Source: Acidimicrobiia bacterium
Lineage (GTDB): Bacteria > Actinomycetota > Acidimicrobiia > Acidimicrobiales > SZUA-35
DNA: 50,587 nucleotides
Assembly (NCBI GenBank): GCA_029863385.1
Contig: JAOTVU010000016.1
Location: forward strand, 1-50,587
Direction of reading: 5' to 3'
The position numbers were made by a program, and so were the translations under genes. This document shows, piece by piece, positions 10,955 through 23,028 of this stretch. Every line of letters starts with the position of its first letter. Positions within the stretch are counted from its first letter, which is position 1. Below the pieces are notes generated by a model. That model did not search any database, was not told where the DNA came from, and saw nothing but the letters and a program-made list of their open reading frames with translations.

Positions 10955-11422
10955 ATGACTCTCGCCGTTGGCGATGCCGCCCCCGACTTCACGCTGAAGG
11001 ATCAGGACGGCAACGAACACACCCTTTCCAGCCATCGAGGCGAGCGCCCGGTGGTGCTGGTCTTCGTACCGTTCGCGTTCACCGGTATCTGCCAGGGCGA
11101 GCTGTGCTCACTCAGCGAGGACCTCAACGAGTTCGAGGCCGCCGGAGCGCAGCTCTACGGCCTGACGTGTGATCGTCAGTTCTCGATCAAGGCCTGGACG
11201 GATCAGGCCGGCATCAACTTCCCCGTGCTGTCCGACGGCTGGCCCCACGGGGCCACCGCTCAGGCCTACGAGTGCTTCAACGAGGATCTCGGCTGCGCAA
11301 TGCGCCGCACCATCGTGATCGACAAAGAAGGCAACGTGGCCAAGATCTTCCAGTCCGGTGGCATCGGCGAGCCCCGGGAGAAGGCCGACTACAAGGCTGC
11401 TCTGGCCGAACTCACCGCCTGA
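10955..11422 (+). CDS. Peroxiredoxin (AhpE-like)
   Basis: A 155-residue thiol peroxidase that reduces peroxides in the cytoplasm. The active-site signature P-x3-T-x2-C is present as PFAFTGICQGELC, with peroxidatic Cys46 and a further Cys51. The N-terminal GDAAPDFTLKDQDG block and GCAMRRTIVIDKEG region are typical of the AhpE/BCP branch. Additional cysteines (in LTCDRQF, YECF and LGC) could resolve the sulfenic acid. I start at ATG 10955, with GAGG upstream, because the longer frame lacks similarity. It is a single gene with its own candidate promoter. Confidence 0.92.
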   Translation: MTLAVGDAAPDFTLKDQDGNEHTLSSHRGERPVVLVFVPFAFTGICQGELCSLSEDLNEFEAAGAQLYGLTCDRQFSIKAWTDQAGINFPVLSDGWPHGATAQAYECFNEDLGCAMRRTIVIDKEGNVAKIFQSGGIGEPREKADYKAALAELTA

Positions 11423-11501: not shown

Positions 11502-12989
11502 CTAGGCGTAGCCGGGGCGTTGTTCCTCGCGGATCACCTGCACGTCGTGGGGGTGACTTTCCCGGAGACCGGCGCCCGTGATCTTCGTCAGCCGGGTCTT
11601 GGTCCGGAGATCCTCGAGGTCGGCCGCTCCCGCATAACCCATGCCGGAGCGGAGGCCGCCGATGAGCTGGCCGATGAGTTCGGACAGTGATCCGGCATAC
11701 CGGACCCGGGCCTCGATGCCCTCGGCCACGTGTTTACCCGGGGCCTGCCCGGAGCCGTATCGATCGGCCGCCCGGCCTCGCATCGCGCCGGCCGAGCCCA
11801 TGCCCCGGTAGGTCTTCCACATGGCGCCGTCGACCAGTTCCAGCTCGCCCGGCGCTTCGTCGACGCCGGCCAGGGCGTTGCCGAGCATGACGGCGTCGGC
11901 GCCGGCGACGAACGCTTTCACGATGTCGCCCGAGGTCACGATCCCGCCGTCGGCGATGATCGGCACGCCCTTCGGGCGGGCGACCATGGCGCACTCGTAC
12001 ACCGCCGAGAGCTGAGGCATACCGGCCCCCGCCACCACCCGGGTGGTGCAGATCGAACCGGCGCCGACACCGACCTTGATCACGTCGGCCCCGGCATCGA
12101 TCAGAGCCTCGGCTCCCTCGGCGGTGACCACGTTGCCGCCGATGACCAGGACCTCCGGCCATTTCTGTTTGATCGACGAGACCGTGTCGACGACGCCTCG
12201 GGTGTGACCGTGGGCCGTGTCGATGACGAGAACGTCGACACCGGCATCCACCAGGGCGGCCGAACGGTCGATGGCGTCGACCACACCGATGGCGGCGCCG
12301 ACCCGCAGCCGGCCGTTGGCGTCGAGCGAGGCGTTCGGCTTCTCGATCCGCTTGCTGATGTCCTTCACCGTGATCAGACCGGTGAGGCGACCGTAACCGT
12401 CGACCAGAGGAAGTTTCTCGATGCGATGTTCGTGGAGGATGTCGACGGCCTCCTCGAGTGACGTTCCTGTCGGTGCGGTGACCAGCGGGGCCGGGGTCAT
12501 GAATTCGGTGACCGATCGCCCGTAGTCGGCCTCGGTGCAGAAGCGCACGTCGCGGTTCGTGAGGATGCCGACGAGGTGGTCGTCCCCGTCGACGATCGGG
12601 ACGCCGGAGATCTTGTGCAGCGCCATGAGCTGCTCGGCCTCACCCAACGTGGCCGTCGGACCCAGGCTCAACGGCGAGGTGATCATGCCGGCCTGCGCCC
12701 GCTTGACCCGCTCGACGTGGGCCGCCTGATCGGCGATCGACAGGTTCCGGTGGAGAATACCGATGCCGCCCTCACGGGCCATGGCAATGGCCAGCGGAGC
12801 CTCGGTCACGGTGTCCATCGCCGCCGACAGCAGCGGAACCTCGAGGGTCATCCCGGCCAGATCGGCCCTGGTGGACACCTCCGTGGGCAGCACTTCGCTC
12901 CAGCCCGGAACCACGAGGACATCGTCGAAGGTGAGCGATTCGAAACCGGCGAGGAGTTCGTGGTTTCGTCCAACCGGTTGTTCGGTCAT
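11502..12989 (-). CDS. guaB: IMP dehydrogenase
   Basis: A 495-residue enzyme that oxidises IMP to XMP with NAD, the committed step to guanine nucleotides. The TIM-barrel opening [14 protein letters not shown] is followed by two CBS domains (about residues 100-215). The catalytic loop [11 protein letters not shown] contains nucleophile Cys314, and the flap includes [10 protein letters not shown]. Length is normal. It lies about 60 bases after purN on the same strand, at the end of the purine run, so branch-point and pathway genes may be co-expressed. Confidence 0.96.
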
Positions 12990-13052: not shown

Positions 13053-13667
13053 TCAGCGTAGGGGTTGGCGGGCGGCCAAAGCGATCACCTTGTCGATAGC
13101 TTTGACCACGACTCGATGTTCCGTTGCATGGACCCGCTCGGTGAAGGTCTCGAGCGTGTCATCGGGTTCGAACGGGACCTCCTCGGTCTCGATGACAGGC
13201 CCGTCGTCGACACCTTCGTCGGGTACGAAGTGGACCATCACGCCACCAGAGGTGACGGTGCCGTCGAGCCATCCGGAGAAGGCCTTCTCGATCGCCCCCA
13301 GGCCGGGAAAGACGCCCGGTTTCGCTGGATGCAGATTGACCACCGTGTGGTGGGTGACGAAGGCCTCCGACAGCAGTCGATCCCAGCCGGCCAGAACGAC
13401 CAGGTCGACCCCGACGGTTGCCACCGCCCGGGCCAACTCGCTGTCGTAGACCCGCCGTGGTTGATCGCCCTGCTCGATCACCAGCGTGGGAACACCGGCA
13501 TCGGCGGCCCTGGTGAGGGCGTACGCATCGGGACGATTGGAGATGACGACTTTGACCTCGGCGCCCAGTGTGCCATCGGCGCAGGCGTCGATGATCGCCT
13601 GGAGGTTGGAACCGTTGCCGGAGACCAGCACGGCGAGGCCGAACAGGTCAGCTGAGCGAGACGTCAC
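13053..13667 (-). CDS. purN: Phosphoribosylglycinamide formyltransferase
   Basis: A 204-residue folate-dependent GAR transformylase (10-formyl-THF to GAR, third step of purine synthesis). The opening LAVLVSGNGSNLQAII holds the phosphate-binding loop. The catalytic triad can be read as Asn111 and His113 in VVNLHPAKPGVFPG and Asp154 in EGVDDGPVI. The start overlaps the end of the purD-purM fusion gene by 20 bases in another frame, so translation is probably coupled. The order PurD-PurM-PurN along the operon matches the domain order of the animal GART protein. Confidence 0.95.
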   Translation of the reverse strand: MTSRSADLFGLAVLVSGNGSNLQAIIDACADGTLGAEVKVVISNRPDAYALTRAADAGVPTLVIEQGDQPRRVYDSELARAVATVGVDLVVLAGWDRLLSEAFVTHHTVVNLHPAKPGVFPGLGAIEKAFSGWLDGTVTSGGVMVHFVPDEGVDDGPVIETEEVPFEPDDTLETFTERVHATEHRVVVKAIDKVIALAARQPLR

Positions 13668-15957
13668 GACCAGAGACCACCCGTCCGATCACAGCGGTCG
13701 GTTCCGGTATGCGTGCCCGAACGTCGTCGACCTTGTCGGCGGCGACGACGGCGACCATCCCGATGCCAAGGTTGAGGATCTGGTGGGCTTCCACCCTGTT
13801 CAGGCCTCCCTGGGCGACCAGCATGCGAAACAGTGGCGGCCAGGTCCACGAGGACGTGTCGATGACGGCACCGCACCCGTCCGGAAGGACCCGCGGGATG
13901 TTGTCGATCAGCCCGCCACCGGTGATGTGGGCCAGACCGTCGATGAGGTCGGCCTCGAGAGCCGGGAGCAGCGGGTACAGGTAGCTCCGGTGCGGTTCCA
14001 CCAGGGCCCGGCCGATCGATCGTTGATCGCCGTCGTGGTCGGCGCCGATCCATCCGCCATCGGTGTCGACCGGCAGCGGTTCGGTGAGGTCGGCGCCGGA
14101 GAACACCTTGCGGGCCAGGGAGTAGCCGTTGGTGTGGAGACCCGAGGATCGAAGGCCGATGAGGCGATGACCGGGTCCGATCGAGGAACGGGGCAGAAGT
14201 CGTGCCCGCTCGACGACGCCCACCATGGTGCCCGAGACGTCAACGGCGCCCGAGGCGAGCACGTCGGGCATCTCGGCCGTCTCGCCCCCGAGCAGCACGC
14301 AGTCGGCGGCCCGGCAGGCGGCCGACATGCCGTCGACGATCCGGCCGACCACTTCCGGGTCGAGTGTCGCGGCGGCCACCGTGTCGAGGAAGAACAGCGG
14401 TCTGGCTCCCTGAACGAGCACGTCGTTGATGCCGTGGTTGACGATGTCGGCGCCGATCGACTCCCACGAGTCGAGCTGATCGGCCAGGATGGTCTTGGTG
14501 CCGACGCCGTCGGTCGACGCCACCAGAAGTGGATCGTCGAGGCCCCGCAGCGAACCGAGGTCGAACACGCCGCCGAAGGACCCCAGACCGGAGACGACCC
14601 GGCGGTCGTGGGTGTCGACGACAGACTGGGCGATTCGGCGGTTGACCTCGGCCGCGGCATCGAACGACACCCCGGCCCGGGCATACGCGTCACGGGGCAC
14701 GTAACGCCAGCCGATATCGGTTCGGGCGAACAGCTGATCGCCCACCAGTTGGGAGACCACCCGGTACACCTTCGTCAAGGCGTCGGTGAGGTCACCACCG
14801 GTGGCGGTGACCGAGAGGACCCGACCGCCGGAGCTGACGACGCTTCCGTCGTCGGCGATCCTGGTGCCGGCATGGATGATCGACACGTCGGGCGGGCAGT
14901 CGAGGTCGGGAATCGGAATGTCGGTGGCGGGCGACGCCGGGTAACCGCGGGCCGCCACCACCACGGTGGCCGCCGTCTGGCCGCTCTGGCGTTCGACCCG
15001 GACCTCATCGAGACGGCCCGACGCCGCCGCGTCGAGCAGATCGAGGACGTCGCCCTTGATCAGGGGAAGGAGGACCTGGGCTTCGGGATCGCCGAACCGG
15101 CAGTTGTACTCGATCAGCTTCGGGCCGCGGTCGGTGAGCATGATGCCGGCGTAGATGATGCCGACGTAGGGCGTGCCCTCGGCGATCATGCCGTCGACGA
15201 CGGGTTGGAGGAAGGTCTTGGCCAGTTCGTCCTCGATCGCCGCCTTGTCGGGGACCGGGGCGAAGGCGCCCATCCCGCCGGTGTTGGGGCCGGTGTCGCC
15301 CTCCCCCACCCGTTTGTGATCCTGGGCCGAGCCGAGCAGGATGAACTGGCGGCCATCGGCGATGCCGAACAGGCTGAGCTCCTCGCCCTCGAGGCGCTCC
15401 TCGAGCAGGACCGTGGCGCCGGCCTCCCCCATCGTCCGCTCGGCCAGCAGATCGTAGATGGCTCGCTCGGTCTCGACCCGATCCTCAGGCACCATCACGC
15501 CTTTGCCGGAGGCCAACCCGTCGGCTTTGACCACCACCGGTTTGCCGAACTCGTCGACCCAGTCGACCGCCTCCGACACGTTCGTGAACGGGGCGCAGAC
15601 CGGACCGGGGATGCCGTAGCGGGCCGCGAACGCCCGGGCGAACGACTTCGAACCCTCCAGTTGGGCGGCGGCCGCCGACGGCCCGAAACAGCGGAGGCCG
15701 GCCCCGGTCAGCGCGTCGGCGATCCCAGCCACGAGGGGCACCTCGGGCCCGACCACCACCAGGTCGACACCCCGATCACGGCAGAAGTCGATCACCGCGG
15801 CGTGGTTGTCAACATCGAGGTCGACGTTGTGCTCGGCGGTGCCCGCATTGCCGGGGGCCACGTAGAGGCGGTCGAGGACTGGCGAGGCCAGAACGGCCCG
15901 GCTGAGCGCATGCTCTCGACCGCCCGACCCGATGACCAGCACGGAGATCTTGTTCAC
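13648..15957 (-). CDS. purDM: Fused phosphoribosylamine-glycine ligase and AIR synthetase (PurD-PurM)
   Basis: One uninterrupted 769-residue frame. Residues 1-420 are PurD (GAR synthetase). It opens VLVIGSGGREHALSRA, has an ATP-grasp core (KADGLASGKGV, KLIEYNCRFGDPEAQ, NTGGMGAF) and ends at RTDIGWR, where PurD normally stops. Residues 423-769 are PurM (AIR synthetase), opening YARAGVSFDAAAEVNRRI, with STDGVGTK, GGETAEMPD and HITGGGLIDNIPRV. The linker is only a few residues. PurD-PurM fusions are known from yeast ADE5,7 and animal GART; in most bacteria the two are separate genes. Both domains keep their motifs, so both activities are expected. purN overlaps the 3' end. Confidence 0.94.
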   Translation of the reverse strand: MNKISVLVIGSGGREHALSRAVLASPVLDRLYVAPGNAGTAEHNVDLDVDNHAAVIDFCRDRGVDLVVVGPEVPLVAGIADALTGAGLRCFGPSAAAAQLEGSKSFARAFAARYGIPGPVCAPFTNVSEAVDWVDEFGKPVVVKADGLASGKGVMVPEDRVETERAIYDLLAERTMGEAGATVLLEERLEGEELSLFGIADGRQFILLGSAQDHKRVGEGDTGPNTGGMGAFAPVPDKAAIEDELAKTFLQPVVDGMIAEGTPYVGIIYAGIMLTDRGPKLIEYNCRFGDPEAQVLLPLIKGDVLDLLDAAASGRLDEVRVERQSGQTAATVVVAARGYPASPATDIPIPDLDCPPDVSIIHAGTRIADDGSVVSSGGRVLSVTATGGDLTDALTKVYRVVSQLVGDQLFARTDIGWRYVPRDAYARAGVSFDAAAEVNRRIAQSVVDTHDRRVVSGLGSFGGVFDLGSLRGLDDPLLVASTDGVGTKTILADQLDSWESIGADIVNHGINDVLVQGARPLFFLDTVAAATLDPEVVGRIVDGMSAACRAADCVLLGGETAEMPDVLASGAVDVSGTMVGVVERARLLPRSSIGPGHRLIGLRSSGLHTNGYSLARKVFSGADLTEPLPVDTDGGWIGADHDGDQRSIGRALVEPHRSYLYPLLPALEADLIDGLAHITGGGLIDNIPRVLPDGCGAVIDTSSWTWPPLFRMLVAQGGLNRVEAHQILNLGIGMVAVVAADKVDDVRARIPEPTAVIGRVVSGRDVSLS

Positions 15958-16068
15958 GAATCTTCCCTTCGTTTCGCCGCCGCGCCGAAAGGTCTATCAG
16001 CGAAATCTGCAGCCCGGATGACAATCAGCGTCACGTCAGCCGCGAATTTCGGGGTTTGAGATGCGGCA

Positions 16069-17499
16069 TCATCCGATGACGCCGTCGAATCGTTTCTTGC
16101 TACTGGTGAGCGCGAGCTGGATCGGCATCGGGTACTCCCCGGTGAAGCAGGCGTTGCAGTAGCCGTCATCGCGCCCGAGCGCCTTCATCATGCGACCGAC
16201 CGACAGGAAGCCCAGGCTGTCGGCGCCGATGTGGTCGCAGATCTCGGGAACGCCGAGTTGGTGGGCGATCAGCTCGTCGTAGGAGCCCATGTCGACCCCG
16301 AAGAAGCAGGGATGGGCGATCGGCGGGCAGGTGACCCGCATGTGAACCTCGGTGGCCCCGGCCTCCCGGATCAACCGCACCAGCGGACCGGAGGTCGTGC
16401 CACGAACGATCGAATCGTCGACCACCACCACCCGCCGACCCTCGATGTTGGATGGCAAGGTGTTGAACTTGAGCGCCACACCCTGGCGGCGCAGCTCGTC
16501 GGTGGGCTCGATGAAGGTGCGACCGATGTAGCGGTTCTTGACGAAACCCTCGTTGTAGGGGATGCCCGACACGTTGGCGAAGCCGATCGCCGCCGGCATC
16601 GACGAATCGGGGACGGGGATGACGACGTCGGCGTCGGCCGGATGTTCCCGGGCCAACTCCTCACCGAGGTTCTGGCGAGCCTGGTGCACCGAGAGGCCGT
16701 CCCAGGTGGCGTCGGGGCGGGAGAAGTAGATGTGCTCGAACGTGCAGCGGGCCTGGTTGGTCTTCGGCGCCATCGCCCGATACGACCGGGCGATCCCGCT
16801 CTGCAGCACGACGATCTCGCCCGGCTTGACCTCGCGGATGTCGGTACAGCCAACGGTCTGTAGGGCGCCCGTCTCGGAGGCGGCCACGTACCCGCCGGTC
16901 GGCAGCTTCCCTACCGACAGCGGCCGGAACCCCCAGGGATCGCGGGCCACCACGACCTTCGTCCCCGACAGAACGACCAGGCAGTACGCGCCCTCCCATT
17001 GGGGCATGATGCGGGCCAGCCGGTCCTCCCAGCTGTCACCCTCGGCGGCGGCCAGCATGAGGGCCAGCACCTCGGAATCCGATGAGGACTGCAGGCCGGC
17101 GCCCCGCTCCAACAGTTTCTGTCGCAGACGGTCGGCGTTGGTCAGGTTGCCGTTGTGGGCGAGTGCCAGCGGACCGTGCATCGTCTCCACCACATAGGGC
17201 TGCACGTTGCGCTCGCTGTTGGAGCCCGTGGTCGAGTAGCGGGTGTGCCCGATCGCGAGCGAACCCACCAGCGGATCGAGGGTGCCCGGCTTGAACACCT
17301 GGCTGACGAGGCCCTGGTCCTTGTGCATCCGCACGGCCCGGCCGTCGGAGACCGCGATGCCGGCCGCCTCCTGACCCCGATGCTGGAGGGCGTAGAGTCC
17401 GAAGAAAGCCAGTCGGGCGGCGTCGCCACTCTGGGTGGCGACGGCGAGGACACCACACTCCTCGTTTGGGCGGTCCTCCCCGACCGTGTGGAGGCTCAT
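16069..17499 (-). CDS. purF: Amidophosphoribosyltransferase
   Basis: A 476-residue enzyme for the first purine step (PRPP + Gln to phosphoribosylamine). The N-terminal glutaminase has its nucleophile in EECGVLAVA (Cys15, exposed after removal of a short propeptide), with ALQHRGQEAAGIAV, GHTRYSTTGS and NGNLTNA. The C-terminal phosphoribosyltransferase has the PRPP loop VVVVDDSIVRGTTS. Cysteines typical of the iron-sulfur type are near the end (GYCNACFTGEYP). The start is set by an ATGA overlap with the purE stop; the frame upstream of it is antisense to nothing but lies inside purE. The gap to purDM is about 110 bases. Confidence 0.95.
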   Translation of the reverse strand: MSLHTVGEDRPNEECGVLAVATQSGDAARLAFFGLYALQHRGQEAAGIAVSDGRAVRMHKDQGLVSQVFKPGTLDPLVGSLAIGHTRYSTTGSNSERNVQPYVVETMHGPLALAHNGNLTNADRLRQKLLERGAGLQSSSDSEVLALMLAAAEGDSWEDRLARIMPQWEGAYCLVVLSGTKVVVARDPWGFRPLSVGKLPTGGYVAASETGALQTVGCTDIREVKPGEIVVLQSGIARSYRAMAPKTNQARCTFEHIYFSRPDATWDGLSVHQARQNLGEELAREHPADADVVIPVPDSSMPAAIGFANVSGIPYNEGFVKNRYIGRTFIEPTDELRRQGVALKFNTLPSNIEGRRVVVVDDSIVRGTTSGPLVRLIREAGATEVHMRVTCPPIAHPCFFGVDMGSYDELIAHQLGVPEICDHIGADSLGFLSVGRMMKALGRDDGYCNACFTGEYPMPIQLALTSSKKRFDGVIG

Positions 17500-17966
17500 C
17501 GAATATCGGCGTCGCCGTCGAGTACCCGCTTGGCCGCCGCTTCCTGATGGGCCACGACACGTTTTCGCAGGGCGTCGTCGTGGGTGGCCAGTATCTTGGC
17601 CGCGGCCAGTGCCGCATTGGCCGGCTCCAGAGCCACCAGCGGCGCCACACCCGGGGGTGTCCGCAGGCTCGAGAGGACGTCGAGGCCGGCGAAGGAATCG
17701 GAGCGGGGCGGGCAGGCGATGACGGGAGCGGCGACGTTCGCATCGCTCAGCCCGGAAAGGGCGTCGCTCATGCCGGCGACCGTGATGAACACGGTTGGTT
17801 CGCCGTCGCCGTCGTAGCCGGCCAGAAGGGACAGAACATGTTCGGGTACCCGATGGGCAGATCCGACCCGACGAATCGTCGGAACCTCGAGCTTGTCGAG
17901 GACGGCCGCGATCTTGTCGACCCATTCGGAGTCACGCGGCGACCCCGACAGAATGACAACCTTCAT
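17496..17966 (-). CDS. purE: AIR carboxylase, class II PurE-like
   Basis: A 156-residue PurE. The first half has the family pattern (ILSGSPRDSEWVDKIA, VGSAHRVPEHV). The usual class I block AGGAAHLPGM is absent. Instead ITVAGMSDALSGLSDANVA and PVIACPPRSD are seen, with DVLSSLRTPPGV after them. That resembles the animal-type class II enzyme, which carboxylates AIR with CO2 directly and needs no PurK. No purK is visible in the window, which fits. It follows purC and overlaps purF by four bases. Confidence 0.88.
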   Translation of the reverse strand: MKVVILSGSPRDSEWVDKIAAVLDKLEVPTIRRVGSAHRVPEHVLSLLAGYDGDGEPTVFITVAGMSDALSGLSDANVAAPVIACPPRSDSFAGLDVLSSLRTPPGVAPLVALEPANAALAAAKILATHDDALRKRVVAHQEAAAKRVLDGDADIR

Positions 17967-18013: not shown

Positions 18014-18988
18014 TTACCCCGTCAGGGGGTCGGACGAAGGGTGGTCGTTCAGATATCGGGCGATATTGGCTTCGACCCGGGGCGCAATGGGGCGCTCGCC
18101 GGGCTCGAAGGCCAGGCCTGTCAGGTCCTGATAGAGATCGACATAGCGGTCGGTGGTGGCTTGCCACACCTCGGCGGCGAGCTCCGGCGGAGGACCGTCG
18201 CCGCGGTAGCCGGTGGCCTTGAGCGCCAGACGGACGGGCTCCTTGTCGAAGCTCTCCGGGCCTTTGCCTTCGGCGAGACGTTGTTCCAGGGACTCGACAT
18301 CCCAGAACCGGGACGAGTCGGGGGTGTGCACCTCGTCGATAAGGACGAGCGACCCGTCGGGGGCGAGGCCGAACTCGTACTTCGTGTCGGCCAGCACGAA
18401 TCCGGCGTCGGCGGCGACGCTCGTGCCTCGCTCGAACACGGCCAGGGCCACTTTCTGCACCTCGGCCCACAGTCCGGCTTCGACCAATCCCCGCTCGATG
18501 ACCTCGTCGCAGGTGATCGGCTCGTCGTGCTGGCCTTTCTCGGCCTTTGTGGTCGGGGTGATCAACGGCTCCGGAAGCGGGCCGTGATCGCTGAGGCCGT
18601 CGGGCAGCGTGTAGCCGTAGAGCAGGCGTTCGCCCTGCTGATAGCGGGGCAACAGGGATGTCGATGTACTGCCGGTGAGCCTGCCTCGCACCACCACCTC
18701 GACGGGAAGTGGGGTGGCGTCGACGACAACCATCGCCTGCGGATCGGGCACGGCGATGACGTGATTGGCCACGATGTCGCGTGTCTTGTCGAACCACCAG
18801 GCCGACAGCTGATTCAGAACCTGGCCCTTGTTCTCGACCAGACCGACCACTCGGTCGAAGGCGCTGAGCCGGTCGGTTGTGACCAGCAGACGGCGGTGGT
18901 CGCCGATCTCCCAGGCTTCTCGCACCTTGCCCGACGTGTGGCCCGGCAGGCGTAAATCCAGAGCTTCCAACGTTGCTCCTGCACCCAT
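18014..18988 (-). CDS. purC: SAICAR synthetase
   Basis: A 324-residue enzyme that joins aspartate to CAIR using ATP. Motifs include SGKVREAWEIGD, TTDRLSAFDRVV, the substrate loop EVVVRGRLTGSTSTS and DTKYEFGL, followed by LIDEVHTPDSSRFW. At over 300 residues it is the longer, yeast-like type rather than the about 240-residue E. coli type. I use ATG 18988; an upstream TTG (19045) and an in-frame GTG between are less likely. It lies 91 bases after purQ and about 50 before purE. Confidence 0.94.
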   Translation of the reverse strand: MGAGATLEALDLRLPGHTSGKVREAWEIGDHRRLLVTTDRLSAFDRVVGLVENKGQVLNQLSAWWFDKTRDIVANHVIAVPDPQAMVVVDATPLPVEVVVRGRLTGSTSTSLLPRYQQGERLLYGYTLPDGLSDHGPLPEPLITPTTKAEKGQHDEPITCDEVIERGLVEAGLWAEVQKVALAVFERGTSVAADAGFVLADTKYEFGLAPDGSLVLIDEVHTPDSSRFWDVESLEQRLAEGKGPESFDKEPVRLALKATGYRGDGPPPELAAEVWQATTDRYVDLYQDLTGLAFEPGERPIAPRVEANIARYLNDHPSSDPLTG

Positions 18989-19079
18989 GAATTCATCATG
19001 GCCCACACCCGGGGCAATCACAGCGATGGCCCGCGATTTGAACAAAAAGTCAAGGTCTGTTCCGGTGGGGGTGAGTCGA

Positions 19080-19835
19080 TCAGGACGAGACGGCCCGCAC
19101 CCCGGCCTCGAACAGCGCCAGGCATCGGTTGCCGTTGGCCCGGCGGCGATGGGGGCTCTGCCGAGCGAACACGTGATCCTCGGGATGGGGCATCATGCCG
19201 AGCACCAGTCCGGTGGGGTCGGTCACTCCGGCGATGTCGTCGATCGAGCCGTTGGGATTGAGCGGGTAGACGGCATGCGCCTGCTGGCCGTCGGCGTCGC
19301 TGTAGCGGAAGGCGACCTGGTCGCTCTCGACCAGCGGCTCGACGTCGTCGACGACGAAGCGCCCCTCGCCGTGGGCGACGGGGCACCACAGCGGTTCGGA
19401 CAACTCGCCGGTCCACACCGAACGCTTTGACGCAGACTGGAGCCAGACCCAGCGGCACTCGAAGCGGCCGTGGTCGTTGTCGGCCAGCGAGGCGGCGATG
19501 TCGGCTCCCGGAAGCAGACCGGCGTGGACAAGGGCCTGGAATCCGTTGCAGATACCGATGATCGGCATTCCGGCCTGCAACCCCTGGTGCAGTTGATCAT
19601 GGAACCATCCGGTGAGGTCGAGCCCCAGCAGCCGGCCGGCACCCAGAGCATCGCCGTAGGAGAACCCTCCGGGCAACGCCAGGATCTGGTGATCGGCGAG
19701 CGTGGTTTCCCCGCTCCGCAAGGCCTCGAGTGGCACCTGCGCCGCTCGAGCGCCGGCGGCCTCGAAGGCGACGGCCAGCTCATCGTTACGGTTCGTGCCC
19801 GGAGCGATCGGAATGAGGACCGATGGTCGGGTCAC
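19080..19835 (-). CDS. purQ: FGAM synthase glutaminase subunit
   Basis: A 251-residue class I glutamine amidotransferase that supplies ammonia to PurL. The nucleophile elbow is IIGICNGFQALV, the oxyanion part is LPGGFSYGDALGAG, and the catalytic His-Glu pair is in MMPHPEDHVF. The GTG start (19835) overlaps the purL stop as GTGA, so the two are translationally coupled. The longer open frame upstream runs antisense-like through purL and is not coding. It is slightly longer than the usual 225-residue PurQ. Confidence 0.94.
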   Translation of the reverse strand: MTRPSVLIPIAPGTNRNDELAVAFEAAGARAAQVPLEALRSGETTLADHQILALPGGFSYGDALGAGRLLGLDLTGWFHDQLHQGLQAGMPIIGICNGFQALVHAGLLPGADIAASLADNDHGRFECRWVWLQSASKRSVWTGELSEPLWCPVAHGEGRFVVDDVEPLVESDQVAFRYSDADGQQAHAVYPLNPNGSIDDIAGVTDPTGLVLGMMPHPEDHVFARQSPHRRRANGNRCLALFEAGVRAVSS

Positions 19836-22795
19836 GGCTGTTCGTCTCCGTTGTCGTCGGGATCGGCCCCGATCGCATCCGGTGCTCCATCGGGTGCCGG
19901 AGCCCGGGCGATCAGATTGGCAGCAACCGGGTGATAGTCGGGCCCGATGAAGGCAGCGCCGATCTCGTCGAGGGACACGTCGACCTCCACACCGATCCGC
20001 AGGCGCCCGTCGTCGGTGACCCAGCCGATGCGAGTGGCCGAGGGCACCAGTTCGGCGAACATGTCGGCGTCGTCGGGTGCGACCTCGACCAGGTAGCGGC
20101 CGGCACCCTCGCCGAACAGCTCGGCCGGACCGTGGGAGGAGGCAACCGACAGGGTCATGCCCAGCCGACCGGCGAACGCCCACTCTGCGGCGGCCACCGC
20201 CAGCCCGCCCTCCGACAGATCGTGGGCGCTCGGCACCAATCCCGAGGCGATGGCTCGATGTAGCTGCCGATGGCGCAACACCGCTCCCGGGTCCGGGGGC
20301 GGGACGTCGCCTCCCCGATCGCCGCCGGTGACCTCGTCGAGATACGAGCCACCCAGATGACCCGACGGCGGACCGACGAGCCAGATGTCGTTGCCGTTGG
20401 CAACGACACCGGTGCTGGGAATCCGGCTGACGTCCTCGGCGATACCGACGGCGGTGATGATCAGGGTCGGGGTCACCGGGTCGGGCGAGCCGTGCTCGTA
20501 GACGAACTCGTTGAACAGCGAGTCCTTGCCGGAGACGAACGGCGCGCCATGGGCGATGGCGGCATCGTGGCAACCTCGGCAGGCCGCCACCAGGCCCGCC
20601 AGGGCCTCGGGGCGGTGCGGGTTGCCCCAGGCGAAGTTGTCGAGCAACGACAGTTGACGGGGGTCTGCTCCGCCGACGACCGCGTTGCGGACGGCCTCGT
20701 CGATCGCGGCCCACGCCATGGCCTCCGGATCGTGGCGGCCGACCAGGATGGCGGCGCCGATGCCGACCACGGCCGCTCGAACCGGGCGCGGACCGTCGAC
20801 CTGTTCGAGAACCGTGTGTTCGGACGGCCCCGTTCCCGGTGGAATGATCGCCGTACCGTCGGCCGGTCCGTCGAGGGCCGCGCCTCCGTAGGGCCTGACC
20901 ACGGTTCCGCCCAGGACCTCGTGATCGTATCCCCGGATCACGGCCTCGTTGGAGCGAATCGACGGGTGGGACAGCAGCGCCAGCAGGGCCTCGTTGGCGG
21001 TCACACCCTCGGGTAGCGAACCCGGATCGGTGCGGGGCGGGCGCGTGGTGTCGACCATCCCGGCAGCCAACCGCAGCGGTGGCCGCCCGTTGTGCAGGAA
21101 CTCGGTGTCGATGTCGACGACGGCCTCGCCACCGTCGACAACGGTCAGCCGACCGTCGCCGGTGAAATGGCCGATCACGTGGGCCTCGACCTGCCAGCGA
21201 CGGGCCAGCGCCAGAAGCGGGTCCGGGTCGGTACAGGCCACGACCATCCGCTCCTGCGCCTCCGACAGCCAGACCTCCCACGGGGCGAGGCCGGCGTACT
21301 TGAGGGGAACAGCGGCCAGATCGACTCGGGCTCCCAGCTCGTCGGCCATTTCACCGACGGCCGACGACAGACCACCGGCCCCGCAGTCGGTGATGGCGTT
21401 GTAGAGACCCCGGTCGCGAGCTGCGACCACGACGTCGATCAGGCCCTTCTCGACGACCGGGTCACCGATCTGGACCGACGAGCCGGCCACCTCTGCGGTG
21501 GTGTTGCTCATCGTCTGCGACGAGAACGTCGCCCCGCCGACACCGTCTCGTCCGACCTTGCCGCCGAGCACGACCACATAGTCACCGACCTGGGGCCTGG
21601 TGGGATTCGAACCCCGGGGCAGCAGCCCGATGCACCCGGCGAAGACCAGCGGCGTGGTGGTGTAGGACGGGTCGTGGAAGACGGCACCGGCGATGTTCGG
21701 GACACCGATCTTGTTGCCGTAGTCGGCAATCCCGGCGATCACGCCGGAGCGGATCCGCCGTGGGTGCAGCACGCCCGGTGGCAGCGTCCGGCTGTCGACG
21801 TCCTCGGGACCGAAACACAGGATGTCGGTGATGGCGATGGGCTTGGCCGAAACACCCAGAATGTCGCGGACCACGCCCCCGACGCCGGTGTTGGCGCCGC
21901 CGAACGGTTCAAGCGCTGAGGGGTGGTTGTGGGTCTCGGCCTTGAGCGCCAGATCGTGTGTTTCGTCGAACCGGACGATGCCGGCGTTGTCGACGAAGGC
22001 GCTCTCCACCCAGGGCGCCGAGATCGCCTCGGTCGCCCCGCGCAGGAAAGTCTTGAGCAGGCCGTCGACCACCCCATCGGGTGTGTCGATGGTTGCCCGG
22101 AACGTCTTGTGCGAGCAGTGCTCACTCCAGGTCTGGGCCAGTGTTTCCAGCTCGGCGTCGGTCGGTCTCCGGCCGTGCGAGTTGAACCACTTCTGGATGG
22201 CCTCGAGCTCGTCGACGGTCAGGCCGAGGCGTCGGGTCGAACTGAGTTCGGCCAGTCCGTCGCGATCGAGGGCGCCTATGTCGATGTGCTCGGTGAGCGG
22301 CGCAGTGGCGGTGTCGTCGGTGAAGCCCGGGGCCAGCTGGTTGAAGTTCCAGCGTTCGATGACCTCGTTGTGGAGGACCCGGCTCACCAACTCGTAGATC
22401 TGAGCCTGACCAACCTGGCCGTAGACGAAAAAGCGGCGGCCGATCGTGGCCGCCGTCACATCAAAGCCCAGGCTCTCCGCCGCCCGGACCAGCTCGGCCC
22501 CCTCCCGATCCGTGACGCCGGGCCGCAGACCCACCTCGATCGCGGTGACCTCGCCGAGGCCGTCGGGAGTCAGGTGTTCGTCGCGCAGCATCCACCACTG
22601 TCCGACCCGATCGATGAGCAACCGGTCGGCCAGGGCCTCGAGTTCGGACTGCTCCAAACGGCCGCGCAGATGAACGAGCCGGTAGCCGACGATCTGATCG
22701 ACCTCGATGCCGAACAGCTTCGCCTTCTCGACCGCTCCCTCCGCACCAATCTCGGTGATGCCGGGACCGATTACAATGGCGTAGTTGGACTCCAT
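19832..22795 (-). CDS. purL: FGAM synthase, PurS-PurL fusion
   Basis: About 987 residues, against about 740 for the usual small PurL. Residues 2-68 (YAIVIGPGITEIGAEGAVEK...) and 82-155 (TAIEVGLRPGVTDREGAELV...) are two PurS-like units, each with the GPGI/RPGV-type opening and an E-A-A-E-type helix. The PurL core follows: LAQTWSEHCSHKTF, KAETHNHPSALEPFGGANTG and DCGAGGLSSAVGEMADELGA. The separate PurQ encoded next supplies the glutaminase. The arrangement lies between the three-part bacterial PurS/PurL/PurQ complex and the single long E. coli PurL. Start is ATG 22795 or GTG 22801; neither has a strong Shine-Dalgarno. It heads the purine run. Confidence 0.93.
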   Translation of the reverse strand: MESNYAIVIGPGITEIGAEGAVEKAKLFGIEVDQIVGYRLVHLRGRLEQSELEALADRLLIDRVGQWWMLRDEHLTPDGLGEVTAIEVGLRPGVTDREGAELVRAAESLGFDVTAATIGRRFFVYGQVGQAQIYELVSRVLHNEVIERWNFNQLAPGFTDDTATAPLTEHIDIGALDRDGLAELSSTRRLGLTVDELEAIQKWFNSHGRRPTDAELETLAQTWSEHCSHKTFRATIDTPDGVVDGLLKTFLRGATEAISAPWVESAFVDNAGIVRFDETHDLALKAETHNHPSALEPFGGANTGVGGVVRDILGVSAKPIAITDILCFGPEDVDSRTLPPGVLHPRRIRSGVIAGIADYGNKIGVPNIAGAVFHDPSYTTTPLVFAGCIGLLPRGSNPTRPQVGDYVVVLGGKVGRDGVGGATFSSQTMSNTTAEVAGSSVQIGDPVVEKGLIDVVVAARDRGLYNAITDCGAGGLSSAVGEMADELGARVDLAAVPLKYAGLAPWEVWLSEAQERMVVACTDPDPLLALARRWQVEAHVIGHFTGDGRLTVVDGGEAVVDIDTEFLHNGRPPLRLAAGMVDTTRPPRTDPGSLPEGVTANEALLALLSHPSIRSNEAVIRGYDHEVLGGTVVRPYGGAALDGPADGTAIIPPGTGPSEHTVLEQVDGPRPVRAAVVGIGAAILVGRHDPEAMAWAAIDEAVRNAVVGGADPRQLSLLDNFAWGNPHRPEALAGLVAACRGCHDAAIAHGAPFVSGKDSLFNEFVYEHGSPDPVTPTLIITAVGIAEDVSRIPSTGVVANGNDIWLVGPPSGHLGGSYLDEVTGGDRGGDVPPPDPGAVLRHRQLHRAIASGLVPSAHDLSEGGLAVAAAEWAFAGRLGMTLSVASSHGPAELFGEGAGRYLVEVAPDDADMFAELVPSATRIGWVTDDGRLRIGVEVDVSLDEIGAAFIGPDYHPVAANLIARAPAPDGAPDAIGADPDDNGDEQP

Positions 22796-23028
22796 TCCCA
22801 CTGCTTTCAGGATGTCGGGTGTTGCCTCCCGGGCCGACGCCGAACCCGGGAATTTTTACCCAAATGTCTTTTACCACCCCGGGAGTGCCACACGGCGCTG
22901 CTCGCACTGCCCCCTGCCAAGGTAGTGCCGATCGTGTCGAGCGCTACATTTGGTCCGGTAATGAATGGGGCAATGGATGGCATGGTATCGAGCGGCACAG
23001 GCGTGAGTCTCGGCCCGGGCGAAGCGGC
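22796..23028. other. Divergent intergenic region of the purine run
   Basis: This 233-base gap separates the purine run (minus) from the nucleotidase gene (plus) and must hold both promoters. An AT-rich patch near 22850-22885 (GGGAATTTTTACCCAAATG) stands out against the GC-rich background and is a plausible start region for the purine operon, but I could not match a clear -35/-10 pair. No purine riboswitch motif is seen. Confidence 0.4.

Follow-up and report, generated by a model that had tools for sequence, protein, structure and literature searches.

The purine operon and the fused purDM gene

The window, by which we mean the whole 50,587-nt stretch of DNA analyzed from an Acidimicrobiia bacterium (contig JAOTVU010000016.1), carries a run of purine biosynthesis genes on its minus strand in the order purSL-purQ-purC-purE-purF-purDM-purN-guaB (Table 1). 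Within this run, purDM is an uninterrupted frame of 769 codons plus stop, with no stop codon at the junction of its two halves and with AAGGGAAG ahead of its GTG start. The Pfam domains follow one another as GARS_N, GARS_A and GARS_C, then AIRS and AIRS_C. The NCBIfam model TIGR00877 (purD) matches residues 5–419 with 463 bits (E 8.5e-139; model positions 2–423 of 425; cut-off 288), and TIGR00878 (purM) matches residues 424–761 with 303.5 bits (E 1.8e-90; model positions 2–330 of 332; cut-off 236.35). At these scores and E values, the domain matches are not due to chance. An earlier sequence-only reading of this DNA had described one 769-residue frame with a complete PurD (1–420) and PurM (423–769) and almost no linker, and this description holds, both halves scoring above the NCBIfam cut-offs. 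A PurD domain followed by a PurM domain within one chain is also the arrangement of Ade5,7-type proteins.

Table 1. Coordinates of the purine genes and of the parts of purDM in the window.
Feature	Position	Strand	Remarks
purL with N-terminal PurS domain (purSL)	19832..22801	(-)	
purQ	19080..19850	(-)	start approximate; within longer mechanical ORF
purC	18014..19045	(-)	start codon uncertain; domain begins at residue 32
purE, class II AIR-carboxylase-like	17496..17966	(-)	
purF	16069..17499	(-)	predicted ATG at 17499; ATGA, 4-nt overlap with purE stop
purDM, fused phosphoribosylamine--glycine ligase / phosphoribosylformylglycinamidine cyclo-ligase	13648..15957	(-)	769 aa, GTG start
PurD half, residues 1-420 (GARS_N, GARS_A, GARS_C)	14698..15957	(-)	Pfam, NCBIfam
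Junction PR, two residues between PurD and PurM query halves	14692..14697	(-)	
PurM half, residues 423-769 (AIRS, AIRS_C)	13651..14691	(-)	Pfam, NCBIfam
purDM/purN overlap, 20 nt	13648..13667	(-)	
purN	13053..13667	(-)	204 aa, predicted GTG start; TIGR00639 184 bits, cut-off 150.1
guaB, downstream of purN	11502..12989	(-)	

The PurD half contains RFGDPEAQ at residues 287–294, a match to R[LF]GDPEx[EQIM], which the available text of one paper gives as a PurD motif (PMC3261824). Across an alignment of 53 fused proteins, R287 and G289–E292 are invariant and F288 nearly so. The assembly, 92% complete and in 293 contigs, yielded no second purM, nor a second purD above the cut-off. An 857-codon open frame runs antisense over purDM (13486–16059, plus strand), and is in all likelihood a shadow frame that reflects high G+C.

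Upstream, purF and purDM are separated by 111 nt. The PurL of the same operon (989 aa) has an N-terminal PurS domain and is itself a purS-purL fusion. The predicted purE product is by sequence nearer to known class II than to class I enzymes, with 130.8 bits to 3rg8 (which we take to be the Treponema denticola class II enzyme), 83.3 to 2h31 (presumably human PAICS) and 58.9 to 1d7a (presumably the class I enzyme of Escherichia coli), and the assembly holds no other purE-like match of comparable strength. A class II PurE should not require PurK. The absence of purK as support for this assignment failed, given that a purK match above the cut-off is present in the assembly (329.8 bits, cut-off 318.4; positions 844–1905 of C24, a contig of 6.4 kb), where it adjoins a phosphoribosyltransferase-like ORF; this contig is possibly contamination, which is estimated at 5.6% for the assembly. 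Between positions 11300 and 16200, we noted no promoter-like sites and a single terminator-like site, on the other strand, both results being within chance.

Occurrence of the fusion among relatives

Some relatives of the window genome carry purD and purM as separate, overlapping genes, and a single indel could therefore imitate a fusion by joining two genes through an assembly or sequencing error. The chance of this is so small as to be negligible. The nearest matches (92, 89 and 88% identity) are proteins of 769, 765 and 769 aa with the same join, and with the purDM protein as query both the GARS and the AIRS domains are present in all 120 of the best matches listed (of 7996). In the family of the window genome, 39 genomes were searched and the joint was read in 31, of which 28 are fused and three split (G249, G261 and G283). 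Since the best 120 of 7996 matches and 28 of the 31 family genomes read are fused, a sequencing error is excluded. The false join of two frames, which the sequence-only reading had named as the result that would undo it, is contradicted by fused proteins of near-identical length in other records.

The same count indicates that the fusion is no rarity of the window genome, and a PurD-PurM fusion is ordinary for its clade. The sequence-only reading had suggested a survey of the Actinobacteria, and the fusion was encountered there in three places. The class was covered by 247 genomes, 206 of them with a match, and at least 15 match both halves in one frame among the matches listed: two of the own family, 11 of a further family of the order (f2), and two of a genus of another order (g117). 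A sixteenth fused genome of the class lacks most of PurD (G031). Elsewhere in the Actinomycetota, the survey found nothing comparable, with 0 of 358 genomes outside the class showing a match over both halves among the matches listed (396 genomes of the phylum searched), a listing in which fused matches rank first.

The fusion recurs in the Chloroflexota, at two loci (L004 and L005) among the 80 loci retained. With the L004 protein as query, 120 fused proteins were listed as the best of 7978 matches, two of them animal, and all eight bacterial rows among these 120 that bear an organism name are Chloroflexota. The Chloroflexota PurDM resembles that of the window in its fusion, with purE-purF upstream at L005 and purN downstream at L004, but shares 45–50% identity with the window protein and has different linkers.

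We did note that all 20 listed genomes of the class without a PurDM match belong to one family (f27, genus g53) with genomes of ~1 Mb, and that five f2 genomes of 95–98% completeness (G039, G071, G202, G217 and G238) have very weak PurDM matches only. These are possible purine auxotrophs.

Lineage of the purF-D-M-N operon

The purD and purM loci fall into two types. In type A, the genes are ordered purF-D-M-N, with purC and a class II-like purE before and guaB after in many of the loci of sufficient length. In type B, purM lies away from purD, which stands next to purC or purQ or by itself; no purM was seen near an unfused purD of this type in 20 stretches of 6.9–9.3 kb. In the PurM tree, type A (fused and split) and the Chloroflexota-type rows form one clade (100/100) apart from type B and other Actinomycetota, and in the PurD tree they again form one clade, with animals inside it (87/87) and one Rhodothermales PurD adjoining it (95/94). 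The purDM lineage thus stands apart from the usual purD and purM of the phylum, being a separate clade in both trees. Of the separate PurD and PurM trees that the sequence-only reading had recommended, the type A clade is common ground, and the placement of animals is where the two halves disagree.

From these trees we infer transfer of the type A operon between Chloroflexota and Acidimicrobiia. A purF-D-M-N operon lineage shared with Chloroflexota would have entered the Acidimicrobiia, after which its D/M joint would have alternated between fusion in one frame and separation into two genes with an overlap of a few bases. Two genomes of the other order (G207 and G245, loci L086 and L085, genus g117) carry a fused purDM together with a separate purD (41%), and this extra purD may mean that the type A operon was gained. 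The split locus of an f2 genome (G051, L096) groups among the Chloroflexota-type rows in both halves, and the fused locus of its mate in genus g6 (G019, L087) groups with its family; the type A genes of G051 are possibly a replacement or contamination.

Of the 11 split type A loci, seven have 4 nt in common between the purD stop and the closest purM start, two have 8 nt, one has 1 nt and the last has no overlap; purD and purM are adjacent in all 11, adjacency also being used to recognize them. The nine split Acidimicrobiia loci with a 4- or 8-nt overlap (e.g., L097, L176, L177 and L179) share gene order, junction and lineage with purDM, and differ from it in encoding two chains, with a stop/start overlap of ATGA, GTGA, ATGAGTAA or ATGAGTGA.

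A tree of 79 type A rows, made after removal of five identical rows and without L005 and L101 (too short), requires at least five changes between the fused and split states and rejects the placing of every split row in a single clade (p 3e-54). The split L177 is sister to the fused L178 (100/99 in PurM, 100/100 in PurD), and the split L179 to the fused L082 (100/97 in PurM, only 93/48 in PurD). At the joint, the in-frame ATGACA of L178 corresponds in L177 to ATGAGC, read there as stop and start, with two more bases in front (a reading by hand, the aligner having placed its gaps otherwise). The basal rows are fused, and parsimony would favor fission of an ancestral fusion. However, the Chloroflexota-type rows came from a search favoring fused proteins, and with this sampling either direction of change is possible.

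The purN overlap

The GTG assigned to purN is the sole ATG, GTG or TTG upstream of the conserved domain in the purN frame, and inspection by eye of the sequence before it found no clear Shine-Dalgarno site comparable to AAGGGAAG. The sequence-only reading had purN starting inside the last 20 bases of purDM, which is confirmed. Across 51 loci, 33 have a start codon giving a 4-nt overlap between the purM stop and purN, fused and split alike (some of these have further candidate starts), and the remainder comprise five other overlaps, including the 20 nt of the window, and 13 gaps; the spacing ranges from this 20-nt overlap to a gap of 920 nt. With a 4-nt overlap start in 33 of 51 loci of both states, the purN overlap is nothing special to purDM; it is a frequent trait of the purF-D-M-N operon and not a mark of fusion. 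At L092, the purN match starts ~920 nt past the purDM stop, and something has therefore been inserted in the operon.

PurN is a separate frame in the window and does not share the chain of PurDM, as the corresponding domain does in GART. A single PurD-PurM-PurN chain was considered for three family loci (L114, L119 and L121), where purN lies in the purM frame, one stop codon and 24–48 nt (counted as far as the beginning of the PurN match) short of a triple frame; the stop codon precedes PurN in each, and they are unfused. In a search for triple fusions among proteins of ~880–2800 residues, scored on PurM, the matches with a PurN domain that bear an organism name are animals (among the best 120 of 974). 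Four PurDM proteins of 971–994 aa (P0237, P0238, P0308 and P0352) have an extra PF13366 domain; P0237 and P0238 (~50% identity) contain this domain and no PurN domain.

Comparison with eukaryotic GARS-AIRS proteins

The nearest architecture to that of purDM is the GARS-AIRS protein of the yeast Ade5,7 type, in which PurD and then PurM lie in one chain with PurN separate. The window gene differs in being bacterial, operon-borne and joined by a two-residue junction. The yeast protein has been termed PurDM (PMC10912719, in its available part). The animal trifunctional GARS-AIRS-GART protein (adenosine-3) has the D-M-N order in common with the window, and the listed animal sequences show ~34–46% identity across the PurM half. 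It differs in that PurN is a separate gene in the window and the PurM halves are not sisters.

The sequence-only reading had called the locus a bacterial version of the GART order. This stands insofar as D-M-N is present as a fused chain plus an overlapping gene; the arrangement is, however, common in the family, and the placing of the animal PurM half in the bacterial lineage is rejected. Descent of the bacterial PurDM and the animal GARS-AIRS from one fusion event is accordingly a proposal we consider decidedly improbable. The domain order is identical, and the PurD half leans toward such descent: in its trees the animal GARS nests within type A, at 97/92 when 12 bacterial rows serve as outgroup and at 87/87 when 20 do, type A held apart from it giving p 0.071 and 0.038, respectively. 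The animal AIRS, in contrast, groups with four Proteobacteria (98/89), and the tree that forces it into type A has an lnL 32.8 lower and is rejected (p 0.015). These tests are exploratory, with four animal rows each, no fungi and few bacterial outgroups. Given that the PurM and PurD halves disagree, a single fusion shared with GART is unsupported, and GART is possibly of mixed origin.

Predicted function of PurDM and the state of its joint

The AlphaFold2 model of PurDM, built with the alignment of 53 fused proteins, has a mean pLDDT of 92.2 and a pTM of 0.68, with a dip around residues 421–430. As modeled, the protein is two sound domains on a loose joint with no firm D-M arrangement, the whole-model pTM of 0.68 leaving that arrangement unfixed. 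Foldseek led from one half to GAR synthetases and from the other to AIR synthetases, solved human and Cryptococcus structures included, and none of the best 50 of 1654 matches was a solved chain holding both enzymes. Based on its sequence, PurDM is likely a bifunctional enzyme of steps 2 (GAR) and 5 (AIR), predicted to be co-translated with PurN from one purine-operon message, a reading to which we assign a probability of roughly 85%. Both halves would be active. PurM is known to dimerize, and the PurM half would, in doing so, tether two PurD units. The gain of the fusion would be equal dosage and co-assembly rather than channelling between two sites, and purN, with no clear Shine-Dalgarno site, would be read by re-initiation.

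The sequence-only reading had instead inferred that the overlap could make a physical or cotranslational unit channelling phosphoribosylamine (PRA) and FGAR, which we find unsupported. PurD catalyzes step 2 and PurM step 5, with PurN (step 3) and PurL (step 4) intervening, and PRA is made by PurF and consumed by PurD (PMC10912719, accessible text). The fusion alone therefore cannot pass a product from site to site. A wider form of the idea, in which fusion and purN overlap together bring PurF and PurN into a channelling complex that shields PRA and hands on GAR and FGAR, seems to us quite improbable. The genes purF, purDM and purN are neighbors in the operon, kinetics in E. coli support PurF-PurD transfer (PMC10912719, available part), and split-YFP assays show weak clustering of PurD and PurM, with PurN at its margin (PMC12583656, available part). 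However, the two fused enzymes are non-consecutive, purF is set off from purDM by the 111-nt gap, the purM-purN spacing varies from overlap to a gap of 920 nt, the model (pTM 0.68) lacks a firm D-M arrangement, and work in E. coli saw no stable binding of PurF to PurD, according to the available text of PMC10912719. Contacts of PurDM with PurF or PurN are possible, and in E. coli weak contacts among these enzymes are supported (PMC12583656 and PMC10912719, both in their accessible portions).

A stronger competitor to a gain from fusion is near-neutrality of the fused state, with indels letting the joint drift between fused and overlapping forms to little functional effect; we rate this somewhat below even odds. 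It would account for the five or more switches on the 79-row tree, for the sister pair L177 and L178 being in different states, and for the split relatives retaining the gene order and joint of the fused loci. Yet the fusion is kept in 28 of the 31 family genomes read, more than free flip-flop suggests, and purD and purM stay neighbors in every split locus, though adjacency is also how these were recognized. More speculative, and in our view unlikely, is an account in which the joint is a genetic toggle and the type A operon lineage also supplied animal GART with its GARS half. At the joint, a quadruplet ATGA or GTGA would, in frame, be read as Met/Val-Xaa within one bifunctional chain and, when shifted, as stop and restart of two overlapping genes, such that an indel of one or two bases would switch the gene from a fused to a translationally coupled state or back. 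Fused genes keeping the quadruplet may also yield free PurM through internal starts, and the type A lineage would have given animals the GARS half, later joined to an AIRS of other origin. Fossil start codons in the fused linkers were a candidate sign of such a toggle, and were not borne out: 7 of 36 linkers contain an in-frame [AG]TG with A as the next base (the 36 include the repeats L002/L163 and L003/L180, and the seven include one repeat), which per codon is no enrichment (7/737 in linkers vs. 233/26141 elsewhere in these genes; odds ratio 1.07, p 0.84). Given that start-like quadruplets are not enriched, the toggle draws on the split junctions and the L177/L178 pair.

Implications of a bacterial PurD-PurM fusion

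The JGI product name of PurDM is already that of a phosphoribosylamine--glycine ligase/phosphoribosylformylglycinamidine cyclo-ligase. The sequence-only reading had allowed that the fusion might be common in all relatives and already described; it is indeed common in the family and occurs in Chloroflexota, and our literature search, with most subscription journals outside its scope and other papers represented by their accessible text, returned no paper naming a bacterial PurD-PurM fusion. In the available part of a review, GART is replaced in bacteria by three separate enzymes (PMC10912719), and a gut survey, as far as its text was accessible, lists bacterial homologues of human GART with 0 counted as full-length and 200 as split (PMC12547972). 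The lasting point of the locus is that GARS-AIRS has a counterpart in bacteria, fused in some species and split in their sisters. Two bacterial groups carry the first two thirds of GART as one chain, with close relatives split at that very joint, and these sister species provide a natural experiment on the fusing of non-consecutive pathway enzymes.
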